This document shows, one piece after another, positions 3,052 through 19,401 of a stretch of 64,000 nucleotides of DNA. A model generated the notes under the pieces. The model worked only from the letters and a program-made list of their open reading frames with translations. It did no database searches and was not told the origin of the DNA. The position numbers and the translations under genes are program-made. Origin of the DNA: Catellatospora methionotrophica (lineage in GTDB: Bacteria; Actinomycetota; Actinomycetes; Mycobacteriales; Micromonosporaceae); the NCBI RefSeq assembly GCF_011297335.1, contig NZ_JAAOTJ010000025.1:1-64000 (forward strand). The letters are read 5' to 3'. Position 1 is the first letter of the stretch, and every line of letters starts with the position of its first letter.

Positions 3052-4365
3052 TCACCAGGGGGTGGAGAGGACGGCTTCGATGATCATGGCGGAGAGGGCG
3101 CCTACGGCGACCAGGGTCAGTGGGGCGGGGACGGGGTCGCCGCCGGGGCGTTCGGGGGCGACGGCGGCGATGGTGAGCCACGGGAAGTAGGGGAGCCAGG
3201 CGTGTTCCGCGCCGCCGCGGGCCAGGCCCGCCCCGACCGAGAAGAGCACCGCGCCGGACGCGCCCACCAGGAACGGCCAGCCGGGGGTGTTGCGCACCTT
3301 GCGCAGGCTGGCGTAGATGGGCGGCCCGGCGGCCAGCAGCAGCGCGCACACGCTGATCAGGCCCCACCACAGGGCTGACCGGTGCGGCTCGATGCGCTGG
3401 GCGAAGTCGGCGTACGCGGTGCCGAGCCCGTCGGTCCAGGTGAAGCCCAGCCGGGCCGCGCCGAGCACCGGCAGCAGTACGCCGAGCCCGGCGAACATGT
3501 TCAGGGCGGCGCGGCGACGGGCGAAGTTCAGGAACACCACGGACAGCCCCAGCCACGCCACGGCGTACGAGAACAGTGCCGCCGTGCCCAGCAGCAGCCC
3601 GGCCAGCACCGCCCACGCCGCGGCCCGCCAGCCGTGGCGGCGGGTGGCGCGCACCCCGGCCAGCGTCATCGCCGCGCCGATGGTGGCCACCACGGCGTCC
3701 ATCGACACCGCCGTCCACACCGCGTACGGCGCGAGCGCCAGCACGGGCGCGTACGGCCGCGCGGCGGCCTCGCCGCTCATGTCGCGTACGGCGGCCAGCA
3801 CCATCGGCACCGACAGCGCCCCGACAGCGGTCACCAGCAGCCCCAGCGCCAGGTGGTCGGTGACCCCGAGCCGCTGCACGGCCCACAGCACCAGCACCGG
3901 CGCGGGCGGGTGCCCCCGGGTGGCCGCGGTGTGCTCGGCCGAGCGGTCCGTGAAGCTGCGCAGGTAGCCCAGCGGGTCGTCGCCGACCTCCTGCACGTCG
4001 CCCAGGTAACTGTCCGGGGTCAGCGACCGGGTCAGCCCGTCGGAGCCGTCGACGAGCGCCAGCGAGACGGCCCAGGCGAAGAACGCGACGGTCGCCCCGA
4101 GGCTGACCGCCCACCACGGCAGTCGATGGATCCAGCCGCGCCAGGCGGCGCCGAGCACGGCTGTCGCGACGACGGGCGCCAGCAACGACATCGGCGACAG
4201 TTCGAGGCGATAGCGGCCCAGAAACGGCGCGCTCGCGGTGCCCAGCCGGGCCCCGGCGCGCACCGCCAGCCAGGTCGCGAGCAGGCCGAATGTCACCAGC
4301 ACGAACCAGCCGAACAGGTCTCGCCGTTCGCGGTCGCGGGTGCTCAGGGGGTCGACGGTGGTCAC
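3052..4365 (-). CDS. Polytopic membrane protein, possible GT-C type glycosyltransferase
   Basis: About 437 aa from the GTG at 4365; an ATG at 4416 in the same frame would add 17 residues that look less like coding sequence. At least ten hydrophobic segments are spread over the length. The first extracytoplasmic loop follows a membrane span and contains many acidic and aromatic residues, and the overall layout resembles actinobacterial GT-C glycosyltransferases or mannosyltransferase-like proteins that use lipid-linked sugars. No catalytic motif could be fixed, so the function is inference from topology only. Divergent from the small HTH gene. Confidence 0.7.
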   Translation of the reverse strand: MTTVDPLSTRDRERRDLFGWFVLVTFGLLATWLAVRAGARLGTASAPFLGRYRLELSPMSLLAPVVATAVLGAAWRGWIHRLPWWAVSLGATVAFFAWAVSLALVDGSDGLTRSLTPDSYLGDVQEVGDDPLGYLRSFTDRSAEHTAATRGHPPAPVLVLWAVQRLGVTDHLALGLLVTAVGALSVPMVLAAVRDMSGEAAARPYAPVLALAPYAVWTAVSMDAVVATIGAAMTLAGVRATRRHGWRAAAWAVLAGLLLGTAALFSYAVAWLGLSVVFLNFARRRAALNMFAGLGVLLPVLGAARLGFTWTDGLGTAYADFAQRIEPHRSALWWGLISVCALLLAAGPPIYASLRKVRNTPGWPFLVGASGAVLFSVGAGLARGGAEHAWLPYFPWLTIAAVAPERPGGDPVPAPLTLVAVGALSAMIIEAVLSTPW

Positions 4366-4502
4366 GGCGAGACACGCTATCGGGTACCCGACAGCACCGT
4401 GCGTGTCGGTTGGCATGGAATTGATATCTAGCGCATGATCGTCGGAGGCGGTCTAATAGGTTGGACCGCAAACCGCATCGTCCGGGACGTGAGGATTTCA
4501 AC

Positions 4503-4730
4503 ATGGCAGCCACCGGCACAGCTACCACCACCGAGAAGGGTCGCCGGATCGTCGGGACCGAACGCCAGACGCTCGCCAAGGACCTCGTGAAGCGCTACAC
4601 GTCGGGTGAGTCCATCCGCGCGCTGGCCGCGTCGACTGGCCGTTCGTACGGATTCATCCACCGCGTGCTCACCGAGTCCGGAGTCGCGCTGCGTCAGCGC
4701 GGCGGAGCCCGTCGGCGCAAGAAGGCATGA
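4503..4730 (+). CDS. Small helix-turn-helix protein
   Basis: A 75-aa basic protein. The ATG at 4503 is preceded by GTGAGGA at a proper distance; an upstream extension is possible but has no ribosome binding site. Residues ~22-62 (KDLVKRYTSGESIRALAAST, then GRSYGFIHRVL) form a helix-turn-helix like those of Hin/resolvase-type or WhiB-independent small actinobacterial regulators. The C-terminus is a run of Arg, Lys and Gly (RGGARRRKKA) that could contact DNA or RNA nonspecifically. Highly similar small proteins are common in actinomycetes and their role is not settled. It is followed closely by the enoyl-CoA hydratase gene. Confidence 0.85.
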   Translation: MAATGTATTTEKGRRIVGTERQTLAKDLVKRYTSGESIRALAASTGRSYGFIHRVLTESGVALRQRGGARRRKKA

Positions 4731-4766
4731 TTCACCCGCGCCACGCAGAGCTTGGGGAGCCGGTTG

Positions 4767-5528
4767 ATGTCTGAGATGGCAGCGGCCGGCTTTCGCATCA
4801 GCCAGGACGGTCCGGTCGCGACGGTGACATTGGACCGCCCGGAGGTGCGCAACGCGCAGACCCCCGAGCTCTGGGCAGGTCTCGCCGAAGCCGCACGGGG
4901 GCTCGCCGGCGATGTGCGCGTCGTGGTGGTGCGCGGGGAAGGGCGGTCCTTCTCCGCGGGCCTCGACCTGAAAGTGGTGCAGGGCGGCGAGTTCCAGCAG
5001 CTCGCCACCGTCAGCCCGGAGGAGTGCGCGGACCGGATCGCCGGTTTCCAGCAGGCCTTCTCCTGGCTCCGCCGACCTGATCTGATCACCATCGCCGCGG
5101 TGCAGGGCCACGCCATCGGCGCGGGCTTCCAGCTCGCACTGGCCTGCGACCTGCGCATCGCCGCCGAAGACGCCCTGTTCGCCATGGCGGAGGTGACGCT
5201 GGGGCTCGTGCCGGACCTCACCGGCACCAAGCGCCTGGTGGAGCTCGTCGGCTACGCCCGCGCGCTGGAGCTGTGCGTGACGGGCCGCCGGGTCAACGCG
5301 GCCGAGGCCGACCGGATCGGCCTGGTCAACCTCGTGGTGGCGCGCGACGAGCTGGACGCCGCCGCGGCCGATCTGGCCAATGCCGTGCTGGCCGCGCCGC
5401 GTGACGCGGTCGTCGAGATCAAGGCCCTGCTGGCCGCCGCGGGCGGTCGCGGCTTCGCCGTGCAGGAGCGCGCGGAGCGCGAGGCGCAGACGCGCCGCAT
5501 CCGCGACCTGGCCGGCCTGGGCGAGTGA
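4767..5528 (+). CDS. Enoyl-CoA hydratase/isomerase family protein
   Basis: A 253-aa crotonase-fold protein. The ATG at 4767 is chosen because GGGGAGC lies eight bases upstream; an in-frame TTG sits at 4752. The sequence shows the CoA-binding and oxyanion-hole segments of the family: SFSAGLDLKVV near residue 65 and AIGAGFQLALACDLRIAAE near residue 110, then ALFAMAEVTLGLVPD. The Glu of AEVTLG matches one catalytic Glu of hydratases. It likely acts in the cytoplasm on acyl-CoA esters, in beta-oxidation or a related pathway; the exact substrate cannot be told. Confidence 0.9.
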   Translation: MSEMAAAGFRISQDGPVATVTLDRPEVRNAQTPELWAGLAEAARGLAGDVRVVVVRGEGRSFSAGLDLKVVQGGEFQQLATVSPEECADRIAGFQQAFSWLRRPDLITIAAVQGHAIGAGFQLALACDLRIAAEDALFAMAEVTLGLVPDLTGTKRLVELVGYARALELCVTGRRVNAAEADRIGLVNLVVARDELDAAAADLANAVLAAPRDAVVEIKALLAAAGGRGFAVQERAEREAQTRRIRDLAGLGE

Positions 5529-7726: not shown

Positions 7727-8272
7727 TCAGCGGCGGCCGAGGGTGTGGGCGCGGCCACGCCAGCGCAGGTGCAGCTCTCCACCGTGGAGGCGGGCGGCCG
7801 GGCCGCGGCGTGGCCGGGGCGCGGTCTCGCCGTCGTACGCCCACAGCAGCTCGCGTAGCGCGAGTTCGCGCGCGGCCGCGGCATCGCGCGGCGGGTGGGC
7901 GCGGGCGAAGTCCCAGCCGTCGCGCAGCGAACCCTGCGGCGCGCGCCCCGCCGCCCAGGCCGAGAACGTCCGCGCCCACTGCCCGGGGCCCGCCGCAGCG
8001 GCCAGCCGGGGCCAGGTCCGCGCGACCTCCTCGGCCCGCTTGCGCAGCAGCGCGTCCCGCGTCGCGCCGACCGCCGCGGCATCGAAGCCGGCGGGCATCG
8101 CGGCTCCGGCCACCAGTGCGCGGACCAGCTCCTCCTGCCGCCGCGCCAGCCCACCGCCACCAGCGCCGACCGGGTGCCCTCGCAGCGCGATCCCGTCACC
8201 GCCGGCACCGACCGGCACCCGCTGCCGGGCGGGCTCGTCACCGGCCCGGCCGACCGTTGCGCCGCCGGTCAT
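7727..8272 (-). CDS. SCO6045-like protein, possible partner of the DUF692 enzyme
   Basis: A 181-aa protein whose ATG (8272-8270) overlaps the DUF692 stop as ATGA, so the two are translationally coupled. Visible segments: a Gly-rich N-terminus, a helical region RQEELVRALVAGAAMPAGFD and VGATRDALLRKRAEEVARTW that resembles the N-terminal helical domain of DUF2063/SCO6045-type partners, and a C-terminal Trp/Arg-rich part (GSLRDGWDFARAHPP, then RELLWAYDG). Partner proteins of this general kind accompany DUF692 (MNIO) enzymes in peptide-modifying clusters, where they bind the precursor. That role here is inference from position. No membrane segment or signal peptide. Confidence 0.75.
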   Translation of the reverse strand: MTGGATVGRAGDEPARQRVPVGAGGDGIALRGHPVGAGGGGLARRQEELVRALVAGAAMPAGFDAAAVGATRDALLRKRAEEVARTWPRLAAAAGPGQWARTFSAWAAGRAPQGSLRDGWDFARAHPPRDAAAARELALRELLWAYDGETAPRPRRGPAARLHGGELHLRWRGRAHTLGRR

Positions 8273-9108
8273 CGGGCCGGGGCTCCGGTGATCGCCGGGT
8301 AGCCGGTCGCGGCGGACAGGGCGTCGAGTTCGGCGCGCAGGGCCGCGGCGGGCGGGTAGTGGCCGTCGCGCTCCAGCAGGACCGCGGGCGGGCGCTGGCG
8401 CGCGCACAGCTCGCCCAGCAGCTCCAGCACCTCGCCGGGCACCGGGTCGGTATGCGTGTCGTGGTACCGCCCCTCGTGCAGGCGGCCCCCGGCGACGTGC
8501 ACGTACGCCATGCGCTCCAGCGGGAGCCGGGTCAGCAGATCGACCGGGTCCTCGCCCCGGTTGAGCGCGTTGGCGTACACGTTGGCGATGTCGAGCAGCA
8601 GCAGCGCGTCGGTGCGTTCCAGGATCTCGGTGAGGAACGCGGCCTCGGTCAGCTCGTCGTCGGGCCAATCGAACAGCGCCGCGATCGGCTCCAGCGCCAG
8701 CGGCACGCCGAGCTCGGCGGTGGTGCGCGCGACGTTGGCGACCACCGCGTCGACGGCCTCGCGGCTGCGCGGCAGCGGCAGCAGGTGACCGGCCTCCACG
8801 CCGCCCGCGCGTACGTACGCGATGTGCTCGCTGACCAGCGGTGCGCCGACGGCGCGGGCAGCGGCGGCCAGGTGCTCGACCCGGTGCGGGTCGACCGGCT
8901 CGGCTCCGCCGAGGGACAGCTTCACCCCGTGCGGCACCACGGCGACACCGGCCGCGAGCAGCTTCGCCAGCGCCTCCGGGGGCTCACCGGAGTGCGGTAG
9001 CGACTCGGCGACGACCTCGACGAAACGCAGGCCGGGCAGCTCGGCGACGAAGCCGGAGATCTCGGGGCGCCAGCCGATGCCGATGCCCCGTCCGGCCAGC
9101 GGGGTCAT
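8269..9108 (-). CDS. DUF692 family multinuclear iron enzyme (MNIO)
   Basis: A 279-aa TIM-barrel protein of the DUF692 family, whose studied members (MbnB, TglH and relatives) are iron-dependent oxidases that modify cysteines in peptides. Candidate metal ligands are visible at the usual spacing: His60 (PHGVKLSLGG), His95 (SEHIAY), Glu140 (LALEPI), Asp173 and Asn176 (LLDIANVYANALN), His204 (YVHVAGG), Asp217 and His219 (HDTHTDP), Glu246 (LLERDGHYP). The start at 9108 overlaps the stop of the TIGR04222-type gene and its own stop overlaps the next start, so all three genes are coupled. The likely substrate is the Cys-rich tail of the upstream gene product; that is inference. Confidence 0.9.
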   Translation of the reverse strand: MTPLAGRGIGIGWRPEISGFVAELPGLRFVEVVAESLPHSGEPPEALAKLLAAGVAVVPHGVKLSLGGAEPVDPHRVEHLAAAARAVGAPLVSEHIAYVRAGGVEAGHLLPLPRSREAVDAVVANVARTTAELGVPLALEPIAALFDWPDDELTEAAFLTEILERTDALLLLDIANVYANALNRGEDPVDLLTRLPLERMAYVHVAGGRLHEGRYHDTHTDPVPGEVLELLGELCARQRPPAVLLERDGHYPPAAALRAELDALSAATGYPAITGAPAR

Positions 9109-10031
9109 CCTCCGCACCCGCCTCCGCCGCACGAGGAGCCGCCGCCGCATGAGGAACCGCTGCTGCAGGAGGAACCGCCGCCGCTGTCGCCGCCGCTCGA
9201 TCCGCCGCCGTCGGAGCCGCTGTAGAAGGGGCCGTACGCGCCGCTGGTGTCGTCGCGCTCCGGGATCTCGCTCTCCCCGGCGAAGGCAGGGTCGGCGGCC
9301 CACAGCACGGCGGTGCCGAACAGGCCGACCGCCAGCGCGGTCTGCGCCGGGCCGTAGGTGTCCCAGGCGGGCCGCGACGCGGGGCGCAGGTGGTTGAAGT
9401 GGCGCTTGGCCTGGAGCAGCGCGTTCTCGGCGGCCCTGGTACGGCGCGGCTTGCGCACGAACAGCACCAGGCCGAGGATGCCGACCGGGATCACCAGCAG
9501 CACCAGGAACGTCACCGGGCGGTCGTTGGCGATCCCGGAGAGGATCCGGACCACGCCGACCGCGAACAGCGCGAGCAGGAGCAGCGGGCCGCGCCGGGCG
9601 CGGGACACCACGTCGGGACCGACGGTGAGGCCGCCGCGGCGCAGCTCCTCGCCGATGGCGGCCAGCGCCTCGGCCACCGAGCGGTCGGTGTGCAGCTCCT
9701 TGGTGCGCAGCCCGTTGCCCACGGCGTGCAGCACCGCGGCGTCCAGCGGGGTGCCGCCCGGCGGCAGCCCGCCGGTGCGGGTGAGCCGCCCGGCGCTGTC
9801 GGCCGCCACGACACCGCTCTGGCGCAGGAAGGTCAGCGACGAGTACACCGCCAGCGCCGCGCCGCCGTTGAGGTAGGCCGTGTGCTGCGGGGACAACTGG
9901 TCCACGCGGACCTGGCCGGGTCCGGCGAACAGGCGGGACCGGTGGATCAGCGTGCCCACCAGCACCACCGCCGCGGCGGCCGCGAACAGCATCAGGAAGG
10001 TGGGGCCAGAGATGCCCCAGGTGTCCGCCAC
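9105..10031 (-). CDS. TIGR04222-type membrane protein with Ser/Gly/Cys-rich tail
   Basis: 308 aa from the GTG at 10031, five bases after AAGGAG. Hydrophobic spans at about residues 10-30, 148-170, 172-193 and 230-250 indicate a membrane protein. The tail after residue 270 is low complexity, made of Ser, Gly and Cys, and ends GGGSSCGGGGCGG. All four cysteines in the protein (residues 289, 295, 301, 306) lie in the last 20 residues. This architecture matches the family called TIGR04222, which is recurrently encoded beside DUF692 genes. The tail looks like a built-in substrate for modification. The stop overlaps the DUF692 start as ATGA. Confidence 0.85.
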   Translation of the reverse strand: MADTWGISGPTFLMLFAAAAAVVLVGTLIHRSRLFAGPGQVRVDQLSPQHTAYLNGGAALAVYSSLTFLRQSGVVAADSAGRLTRTGGLPPGGTPLDAAVLHAVGNGLRTKELHTDRSVAEALAAIGEELRRGGLTVGPDVVSRARRGPLLLLALFAVGVVRILSGIANDRPVTFLVLLVIPVGILGLVLFVRKPRRTRAAENALLQAKRHFNHLRPASRPAWDTYGPAQTALAVGLFGTAVLWAADPAFAGESEIPERDDTSGAYGPFYSGSDGGGSSGGDSGGGSSCSSGSSCGGGSSCGGGGCGG

Positions 10032-10078
10032 GGGAGCTCCTTCGACGAGGGAGCCCTCATGATGGACCATCGCCGCAA

Positions 10079-10837
10079 TCAGCGGGAGACCAGGACGCTC
10101 AGGCAGGTGACGCAGCCTTCGAGCTTCTCGAACTCGCCGATGTCCACCACGACCGGCGTGTATCCGAGATCGGCCAGCAGCTCGGCGGTGCGCGGCGCGG
10201 ACGCGGCCAGCAGCACCCGGTCGCCGCCGAGCGGCACCACGTGGCTGCCGCCCTCCTCCTCGACCGGCCGCACGGCGGGGAACAGCCCCGTCGGCACCAG
10301 GTGCGGCAGGGCCAGGAAGGTGCCGTCGGGCAGCGCGGTGACCGCGGACTTCAGGTGCAGCACCGCGCCGAGCGGCACCGGCACGACGGTGCGTCCCAGC
10401 GGGGCGAGCAGCGCCCGCAGCTGGCGGATGCCCTCGGCGTTGGTGCGCCCGCCGCGTCCGACGTAGACGGTCGTGCCGACCTGGAGCACGTCGCCGCCCT
10501 CCAGGGTGCCCGGCTCGGCGATGTGCGCGGTGCGCAGGCCCAGTTCCAGTACGGCCTGCTCGACGCCGGAGATCTCGCCGCGGCGGGCCGGGGCCCCGGG
10601 GTGGGTCAGCACGGCGAGGTCGTCGACGACCACCACCGCGTCCTCGACGAAGACCGCGTCGGGGCAGTCGTCGGCGGCCGGGGCCGGGTAGACCTCCCAC
10701 CCGGCCGAGGCCAGCGCGTCGGCGTACGCCATGTGCTGGGCGCGGGCCAGGGACAGGTCGATGTCGCTGCGGCCGATGTGGGTGACGATGCCGTCGGCGA
10801 GCCGGGAACCGGGCTCGCGGACCAGGGCGGTTCTCAT
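10079..10837 (-). CDS. ddaH: Dimethylarginine dimethylaminohydrolase-type enzyme
   Basis: A 252-aa guanidine-modifying enzyme of the DDAH/arginine deiminase superfamily, expected to hydrolyse methylated arginine to citrulline and methylamines, or a related substrate. Conserved marks: FVEDAVVVVDDLAVLTHPGA (residues ~63-82), the EGGDVL motif (113-118), His161 in VLHLKSAVT as catalytic base, and a C-terminal GCVTCLSV in which Cys245 aligns with the nucleophile. The ATG at 10837 overlaps the stop of the 34-aa microprotein gene as ATGA, so the pair is coupled. The TIGR04222-type gene starts 47 bases downstream and may be in the same transcript. Confidence 0.88.
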   Translation of the reverse strand: MRTALVREPGSRLADGIVTHIGRSDIDLSLARAQHMAYADALASAGWEVYPAPAADDCPDAVFVEDAVVVVDDLAVLTHPGAPARRGEISGVEQAVLELGLRTAHIAEPGTLEGGDVLQVGTTVYVGRGGRTNAEGIRQLRALLAPLGRTVVPVPLGAVLHLKSAVTALPDGTFLALPHLVPTGLFPAVRPVEEEGGSHVVPLGGDRVLLAASAPRTAELLADLGYTPVVVDIGEFEKLEGCVTCLSVLVSR

Positions 10838-11268: not shown

Positions 11269-11841
11269 TCAGCGGCGGCGGACGGTCTCCTCGATCAGGT
11301 CCAGCACCGGGCCGAAGTCGTCGGCCGAGCCGCCCATCGCCAGCCGCTTGACCAGCCCGTCGTACGCCAGCTCCAGGAAGTGCGCCAGCACGTCCAGCGG
11401 CACGTCCTCGCGCAGCACGCCGGCGCCGGCCTGACGCTGCAGGCGCTCGCGGGTCGCGGTGTCGATCGCCTCGCTGTGCTGCGCCCACCGCTTGGCGAAC
11501 GCGGGGTCCGTGCGCAGCCGCCGGGCCACCTCCAGCTGCGTGCCCAGCCAGCCGGCCGCGTCGGGGTCCTGGGCGTGCGCCAGCAGGTCCCGCATCACCT
11601 GGACCAGGCCGTTCGCGGCGACCGTGGCGGCCATCTCGACCGCGTCGTCCTCGGCGACGGCCAGGAACAGCGAGTCCTTGTCTCGGAAGTGGTGGAAGAT
11701 CGCGCCCCGGGACAGCCCGGTCGCCTGCTCCAGGCGGCGCACCGTGGCGCCCTCGTAGCCGTAGCGGGCGAAGCAGGCGCGGGCCGCGGCGAGGATCTCG
11801 TGGCGGCGCGCATCGAGCTGATCCTGACTCACCCTGGGCAC
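11269..11841 (-). CDS. TetR family regulator, possible aconitase repressor (AcnR-like)
   Basis: 190 aa from the GTG at 11841 (another in-frame GTG follows three codons later). The N-terminal helix-turn-helix is clear at residues ~15-60: ILAAARACFARYGYEGATVR, then LEQATGLSRGAIFHHFRDKD, the typical TetR DNA-binding domain. The rest is an all-helical ligand or dimer domain. The start of the protein resembles AcnR of corynebacteria. The upstream region has the perfect palindrome CCGTACGTACGG (11878-11889), and a close variant lies upstream of the aconitase gene in this window (19507-19522), which supports autoregulation plus control of aconitase. That assignment is inference. Confidence 0.8.
   Translation of the reverse strand: MPRVSQDQLDARRHEILAAARACFARYGYEGATVRRLEQATGLSRGAIFHHFRDKDSLFLAVAEDDAVEMAATVAANGLVQVMRDLLAHAQDPDAAGWLGTQLEVARRLRTDPAFAKRWAQHSEAIDTATRERLQRQAGAGVLREDVPLDVLAHFLELAYDGLVKRLAMGGSADDFGPVLDLIEETVRRR

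Positions 11842-16677: not shown

Positions 16678-19401
<2,724 letters not shown>

Follow-up and report, generated by a model that had tools for sequence, protein, structure and literature searches.

Gene clusters that unite a TIGR04222 protein, an MNIO enzyme, and a PME-type 2 partner were described by Antoine et al. 2025 (PMC12452194), in whose account the C-terminal cysteine segment of the TIGR04222 protein might be modified. There, TIGR04222 proteins make up 40% of the more than 1,000 cysteine-bearing, signal-peptide-less proteins encoded before MNIO genes; their C-termini are rich in Ser and Gly with interspersed Cys, and PME-type 2 partners occur in at least 10% of the clusters. More than a quarter of the family has no C-proximal Cys, and one-third of the genomes with TIGR04222 have no MNIO. 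The modeled examples include a Micromonospora TIGR04222 protein (300 aa) and a Micromonospora matsumotoense partner (158 aa); chemistry and role are left open. We analyze a trio of this kind in Catellatospora methionotrophica, at positions 7727 to 10031 of a 64,000-nucleotide window (contig NZ_JAAOTJ010000025.1, assembly GCF_011297335.1, positions 1 to 64,000). An initial annotation of the window took the arrangement to be undescribed, a point that the published clusters correct. In the open-licence literature searched, no experimental study of the arrangement was found.

The trio is probably a protein-modifying MNIO system, and the cysteine-rich tail of its membrane protein is likely the substrate. 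For the fuller reading, in which the MNIO and its partner modify a cytoplasm-facing tail of the TIGR04222 protein with thiooxazole-type chemistry, we see an even chance; thiooxazole-type chemistry on the tail, judged as a separate matter, falls slightly short of that.

The three genes and the cysteine-rich tail

The components of the locus are as follows.

9105..10031, minus strand: gene 1, TIGR04222 membrane protein of 308 aa, the proposed substrate (TIGR04222 score and sequence)
9108..9272, minus strand: disordered Ser/Gly tail of gene 1, residues 254-308, with Cys289/295/301/306, ending in CGG (predicted local confidence, pLDDT, and Cys positions)
8269..9108, minus strand: gene 2, MNIO enzyme (DUF692, MbnB_TglH_ChrH) of 279 aa (PF05114 and the conserved His/Asp/Glu/Asn set)
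7727..8272, minus strand: gene 3, partner protein of 181 aa, PME-type 2-like (AlphaFold2 model and weak MbnC fold match)

The initial annotation read the locus as three minus-strand genes in one row with ATGA overlaps at both junctions, a membrane protein whose only four cysteines (C289, C295, C301, and C306) are all C-terminal, and a DUF692 enzyme with the expected residue set; each of these holds. Gene 1 starts at a GTG preceded by AAGGAG, and an in-frame ATG at 10070 is an alternative start that would add 13 residues. Its product scores 141.7 bits against TIGR04222, for which the curated cut-off is 43, and thus belongs to the family. The trio is widespread and far from a chance grouping: a TIGR04222 gene lies upstream in 80/80 named loci picked solely by MNIO similarity, and its stop falls within an ATGA in 60 of them. 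The partner gene is present in 77 of the 80; in the other 3, a contig end truncates the stretch to about 5.9 kb. The nearest named MNIOs are those of Catellatospora species, with C. coxensis at 97% identity. In M. matsumotoense (locus L304), a 158-aa partner lies beside the same gene pair and was matched to the published partner by length and species.

The tail has a regular grammar. In the AlphaFold2 model of gene 1, pLDDT is below 50 at residues 263-301 and 303-308. Among 93 family copies that combine a Cys tail with an adjacent MNIO (418 Cys in all), 83 have 3 to 6 Cys per tail. The residue before a tail Cys is Ser or Gly in 412/418 cases and the residue after it is Gly in 362/418; the step from one Cys to the next is most commonly 6 residues (170), then 5 (50) and 7 (43). 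CGG forms the end of the protein in 82 of the 93 copies. This grammar is reminiscent of the 5-thiooxazole peptides with their EGKCG units; one of these peptides, FonA, is described as carrying KCG repeats. In 8 loci (L034, L035, L038, L044, L061, L208, L213, and L214), tandem TIGR04222 copies with differing tails stand beside a single MNIO.

Gene 2 scores 263.5 bits against PF05114 (cut-off 25) and is therefore an MNIO. Its best NCBIfam match is MNIO_BufB (NF050167), where 180.6 bits lie under the 310-bit equivalog cut-off, so that it does not qualify as a BufB; the MbnB model gives 24.7 bits against a cut-off of 325. In an alignment of 135 rows, in which the window enzyme appears twice (P0001 and L001), H60, H95, E140, D173, N176, H204, D217, and H219 are invariant in 135/135 and E246 in 134/134. 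We take these residues to be the metal ligands. As a feature of the clade, the residue after Glu140, position 141, is Pro in 94/135 rows, Asn in 37/135, and His in 4/135.

The partner has no cysteine and no family match in Pfam at E<=1 or in NCBIfam at E<=0.1; by sequence, its profile reaches a best E of 3.1 against the PDB. The AlphaFold2 model (pLDDT 88.2) consists of six helices and three C-terminal strands, and its first fold match in the PDB is MbnC from the MbnABC complex (prob 0.90, E 0.11, TM 0.33). PME-type 2 proteins are defined in part by a fold related to NGO1945/TglI, and 3dee and 8hi7 are absent from the 50 fold matches listed out of 165; the other two traits of the type, being encoded with an MNIO and having no Pfam (DUF2063) match, are both seen. 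The suggestion that the third gene resembles MNIO partners is thus supported by association, through its place beside the MNIO and the MbnC match. SCO6045, the name attached to it in the initial annotation, is a hypothetical protein in the sole paper found to name it.

Co-occurrence with the enzyme and membrane topology

The membrane protein and the enzyme largely occur in the same genomes. With a strong TIGR04222 match defined post hoc as E 2.7e-20 or better, 212 of 300 Micromonosporaceae genomes qualify, and 210 of these have an MNIO too; the enzyme is present in 10 of the 88 genomes without a strong match (Fisher p 5e-58, relatedness ignored).

The cysteines were followed in 171 fetched loci, with short duplicates and the weakest TIGR04222 matches left out. 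Coordinates came for the best matches only, so the Micromonosporaceae loci are biased to high scorers; discordant loci were added. Usable copies number 181 (score at least 60, at least 120 aligned residues, closed frames). By a rule of our own, a Cys tail has at least 2 Cys and a Gly+Ser fraction of at least 0.45 within the last 45 residues; the rule counts as Cys-less L045 (2 Cys), L236 (6 Cys), and the second copy of L214 (3 Cys). A Cys tail and an adjacent MNIO occur together in 121 copies, a Cys tail only in 5, an adjacent MNIO only in 22, and neither in 33. All 126 Cys-tailed copies lie in MNIO-bearing genomes, with the MNIO within 3 kb in 121 and elsewhere in the genome in 5; none of 16 copies from 16 MNIO-less genomes (one copy per genome) has such a tail. 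Among named loci selected by MNIO similarity, a Cys tail stands upstream in 78/80, the misses being L305 and L346. In L305 (Verrucosispora sioxanthis, 4000-5100), the tail is frameshifted and the Cys array lies in the next frame, which may be an assembly error. These associations support the proposal that the tail cysteines are a likely target of the enzyme.

A near miss among the MNIO-less genomes is L231, with 5 Cys and a Gly+Ser fraction of 0.44. An assembly gap explains the case: the frame passes through undetermined bases, ahead of which the Gly/Asp/Ser run carries no Cys. When only Gly/Ser-rich tails are compared, at least 2 Cys are present in 123/126 from MNIO-bearing genomes and in 0/3 from MNIO-less ones: the MNIO-less relatives L230, L233, and L239 retain a Gly/Ser tail without the Cys array. 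A second TIGR04222 paralogue in 8 genomes of genus g4, probably Micromonospora (L077-L084), has no tail Cys and neither MNIO nor partner adjacent. In genome G074 (380 contigs), acnR, a regulator gene considered below, and the TIGR04222 gene are kept together, there is no MNIO match, and the Gly-run tail has 1 Cys.

For topology, the AlphaFold2 model of gene 1 was built with 80 sequences (mean pLDDT 87.8). Alignment A1 combines the window protein with 79 of the 109 non-redundant copies listed, and the window copy L001 is among those left out; alignment A2 used 76 of 82. The model has only three long helices, all on the minus strand.

9930..10007, minus strand: transmembrane helix 1, residues 9-34 (AlphaFold2 helix, block-mean pLDDT 96-98 from residue 11; hydropathy)
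9528..9593, minus strand: transmembrane helix 2, residues 147-168 (AlphaFold2 model; hydropathy)
9456..9512, minus strand: transmembrane helix 3, residues 174-192 (AlphaFold2 model; hydropathy)

The charge pattern is one-sided. Mean Lys+Arg over the 80 aligned proteins is 14.6 in loop 1, 0.8 in the hairpin, 6.0 in loop 3, and 0.1 in the first 8 positions, where the A1 homologues start 4 residues before the domain and true N-termini fall outside the count. Within flanks of about 18 residues, loop 1 plus loop 3 exceeds the other side in 80/80 (14 versus 1 in the window protein). Because the A1 homologues are cut near the domain start, helix 1 was recounted with longer N-termini: from the nearest upstream Met, its C-terminal side is the more positive in 103/105 copies, with 2 tied.

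A distant relationship adds to this picture. Weak TIGR04222 matches elsewhere in the phylum (L107-L122) are DUF2207 proteins, with PF09972 and PF20990 in 5/5 scanned. Of 9 DUF2207-type open reading frames (ORFs; the 5 scanned against Pfam and 4 that were not), 6 begin with a hydrophobic stretch at the N-terminus and continue with a long region, one transmembrane segment, a positive loop, and a transmembrane pair; in 5 of the 9, the TIGR04222 profile alignment begins within the transmembrane segment that precedes the loop. TIGR04222 is a distant relative of the C-terminal half of these proteins (DUF2207_C). If the N-terminal stretch is assumed to be a signal peptide, this layout places loop 1 and the C-terminus inside. 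From the model, the charge bias, and the DUF2207_C homology, three membrane helices with the N-terminus outside and the tail facing the cytoplasm are the likely topology. The same evidence disfavors the surface appendage of the initial annotation. A winged-helix or RRE-like (RiPP recognition element-like) domain for recognition in cis within the TIGR04222 protein was considered and rejected after a fold search with the whole model returned no match at E<=0.001.

The proposed modification and its rivals

The trio would form a dedicated post-translational modification system for a single membrane protein. The TIGR04222 protein would sit in the membrane by its three helices, and the cytoplasm would contain its folded domain, a small helical subdomain toward the C-terminus, and the disordered tail. 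A small MbnC-like or DUF2063-like partner would dock the cytosolic MNIO, which would oxidize tail cysteines, most likely at xCG sites spaced one per 5 to 7 residues; the products would be heterocyclic sulfur ligands, 5-thiooxazole for example. The predicted product is a membrane-tethered tail, facing the cytoplasm, that may bind metal. To our knowledge, characterized MNIO substrates are peptides or small proteins; if the tail is modified, MNIOs act on integral membrane proteins too, and do so across a large bacterial family. The side on which the tail lies decides whether the product would trap metal at the surface or inside the cell.

Several observations count against the modification of a cytoplasmic tail as set out here. 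The enzyme falls under the cut-off of all 5 NCBIfam models it matches, so that none of them assigns its chemistry, and the solved MNIOs 3bww and 8hci have Glu-Asn where the window enzyme has Glu-Pro. The MbnC match of the partner is weak, and no fold match of the partner reaches E<=0.001. Tree-aware tests (FastTree) of the Cys tail are not significant: against MNIO adjacency, 6 independent pairs on supported branches gave a mean of 2.9 changing in the same direction, 0.1 in the opposite, and 3.0 without difference (median p 0.25), and against an MNIO anywhere in the genome, 3 pairs gave 1.2 same and 0 opposite (median p 1). In direction, the trees agree with the tracking of cysteines with the enzyme, without significance. 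For topology, counting 15 residues upstream whatever the start leaves the charge rule at helix 1 in 99/116, with 12 tied and 5 reversed. There are also loci that keep the enzyme and have lost the cysteines. In Virgisporangium aurantiacum (L242/L346), MNIO and partner are kept beside a TIGR04222 protein with a short, acidic tail and a single Cys; L346 reads as a true cysteine loss. L217 (genome G793) has likewise kept the enzyme and lost the tail Cys array. In genus g50, probably Streptomyces (20 loci, L174-L193), 8 loci have a Cys-tailed copy with an MNIO, and in 11/20 a single ORF joins MNIO to partner, the stretch containing only a Cys-less TIGR04222 protein; the fusion was seen in 11/11 loci of the genus examined. 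Locus L180 has no MNIO inside its stretch. In 5 of the 11 fusion loci, a gap of about 1-1.5 kb ahead of the TIGR04222 gene encodes a protein that by eye resembles DUF4142. In four g50 genomes, TIGR04222-like genes at other sites each encode a single Cys, which lies within or next to a Gly run at the C-terminus. The g50, L217, and V. aurantiacum cases show that the MNIO is not invariably tied to a Cys tail. The initial annotation had named loss of the tail cysteines with retention of the enzyme as what would speak against it: such loss occurs in V. aurantiacum, in L217, and, in a different architecture, in the 11 g50 loci, and is absent from 78/80 named close MNIO homologues.

These same loci are what would be expected if the MNIO acted on another protein or peptide and the tail bound metal or formed disulfides unaided. 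We consider this distinctly unlikely, since Cys-tailed copies are confined to MNIO-bearing genomes, the 3 Gly/Ser tails from MNIO-less genomes all have fewer than 2 Cys, and 14 loci that have no Cys-tailed TIGR04222 protein, when scanned for ORFs, yielded no further Cys/Gly/Ser tail beside the Cys-less copies. A different question is where a modified tail would end up. Antoine et al. (PMC12452194) predict large extracytoplasmic domains and a periplasmic tail; residues 225-247 would then cross the membrane, and the tail would be modified in the cytosol and end outside as a bufferin-like tethered metal binder. The hydropathy of this fourth segment, at 1.6 or more in 17/64 Cys-tailed proteins and 1/16 others, fits such a crossing. 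AlphaFold2, in contrast, splits residues 228-253 at high confidence into helices of 11, 6, and 6 residues; the insertion sum of the segment is +4.8, whereas the three helices range from -1.8 to +0.8; charged residues occur in it in many homologues; and the large loop is the positive one. The cytoplasmic placement, opposed to the published periplasmic prediction, is favored, and we hold the crossing to be unlikely on balance. The last hydrophobic segment could also end in a signal-peptidase-like A-x-A (DPAFA) and release the modified tail as a secreted RiPP (ribosomally synthesized and post-translationally modified peptide), as the D-P-x-F-A ahead of the tail in many family copies would allow. 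We reject an internal signal peptide because the DPxFA-type motif is kept in Cys-less paralogues without an adjacent MNIO (L077-L079, L081, L083, and L084) and because the segment is probably no membrane helix in the model, which leaves this outcome very improbable.

Neighboring genes and comparison with known systems

Three further genes lie upstream of the trio.

10079-10837, minus strand: dimethylargininase (DDAH) gene, 392.5 bits, between acnR and the trio
11272..11841, minus strand: AcnR-like repressor of the TetR family, a candidate for local control of the trio (204.6 bits to AcnR 4af5)
16687-19320, minus strand: aconitase, the only one in the genome to pass the family cut-off, some 5 kb upstream of acnR

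The regulator matches Corynebacterium glutamicum AcnR over residues 7-190, and the best TetR protein other than AcnR scores 40.1 bits; by similarity, it is an AcnR. A same-strand acnR lies upstream in 49/60 Micromonosporaceae loci, namely in 49/51 with an adjacent MNIO and 0/9 without; in 41 of these loci, 35-225 nt separate the end of its frame from the TIGR04222 domain. Among the named loci, 76/80 have a same-strand acnR inside the stretch, and the four without it are two Actinomadura, one Actinoallomurus metagenome-assembled genome (MAG), and one unclassified Actinomycetes MAG. Most Micromonosporaceae stretches span about 7 to 9 kb, and the view of neighbors is limited to that distance. DDAH and an ABC transporter were considered as parts of the system and set aside, with relatives in only 7/81 (L001 included) and 10/81 Micromonosporaceae stretches, respectively. 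A C. glutamicum-like AcnR box was likewise set aside: it has 19 matches against 11.7 expected, and 5/100 shuffles reach 19. None lies in the gap upstream of acnR, and the search found no regulatory site.

In Micromonosporaceae, the trio and acnR probably share control, which would tie the cluster to citrate and iron status; the linkage may also reflect simple synteny around acn, or the trio may be transcribed together with acnR. An extended reading has the MNIO modify a folded membrane protein in situ, converting the cysteines of its cytoplasm-facing tail to thiooxazole-type ligands and giving an intracellular, membrane-docked Cu/Fe buffer or sensor whose expression acnR would link to citrate and to the iron-sulfur enzyme aconitase; in this reading, the clade's Glu-Pro active site may catalyze a reaction not yet seen. 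We regard it as unlikely.

The kind of system is already known as a prediction; what we add is the topology, the DUF2207 link, the control comparing Cys with tail, and the acnR linkage. The main text of Antoine et al. (PMC12452194) contains no occurrence of TetR, AcnR, aconitase, or DUF2207. Their clusters share with this locus the same three components and the C-terminal Ser/Gly/Cys tail, and differ in that their tail is periplasmic, whereas the cytoplasm is favored here. The DUF2207 proteins (PF09972 and PF20990) match TIGR04222 weakly in their C-terminal half, and several end in Gly/Ser tails; the TIGR04222 protein here is without the DUF2207 N-terminal domain, and the Gly/Ser tails of the DUF2207 proteins shown have no Cys. 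With MbnB-MbnC of methanobactin, the locus shares the partner fold (a weak match) and the Pfam family of the enzyme; it differs in an enzyme far below the MbnB cut-off and in a proposed substrate that is a membrane protein, not a small peptide. Bufferins and captophorins (BufB-BufC, FonBC, and the 5-thiooxazole peptides) have in common with it BufB as the best NCBIfam match, a Cys-rich repetitive substrate, xCG sites, and a partner. Their substrates mostly carry a Sec signal peptide and their partners are described as DUF2063-RRE proteins; a bufferin system, with its small substrate, N-terminal Sec signal peptide, and DUF2063 partner, is not what is found here. Unlike the bufferins, this locus pairs a polytopic membrane protein, as the proposed substrate, with a short partner that has no Pfam match.

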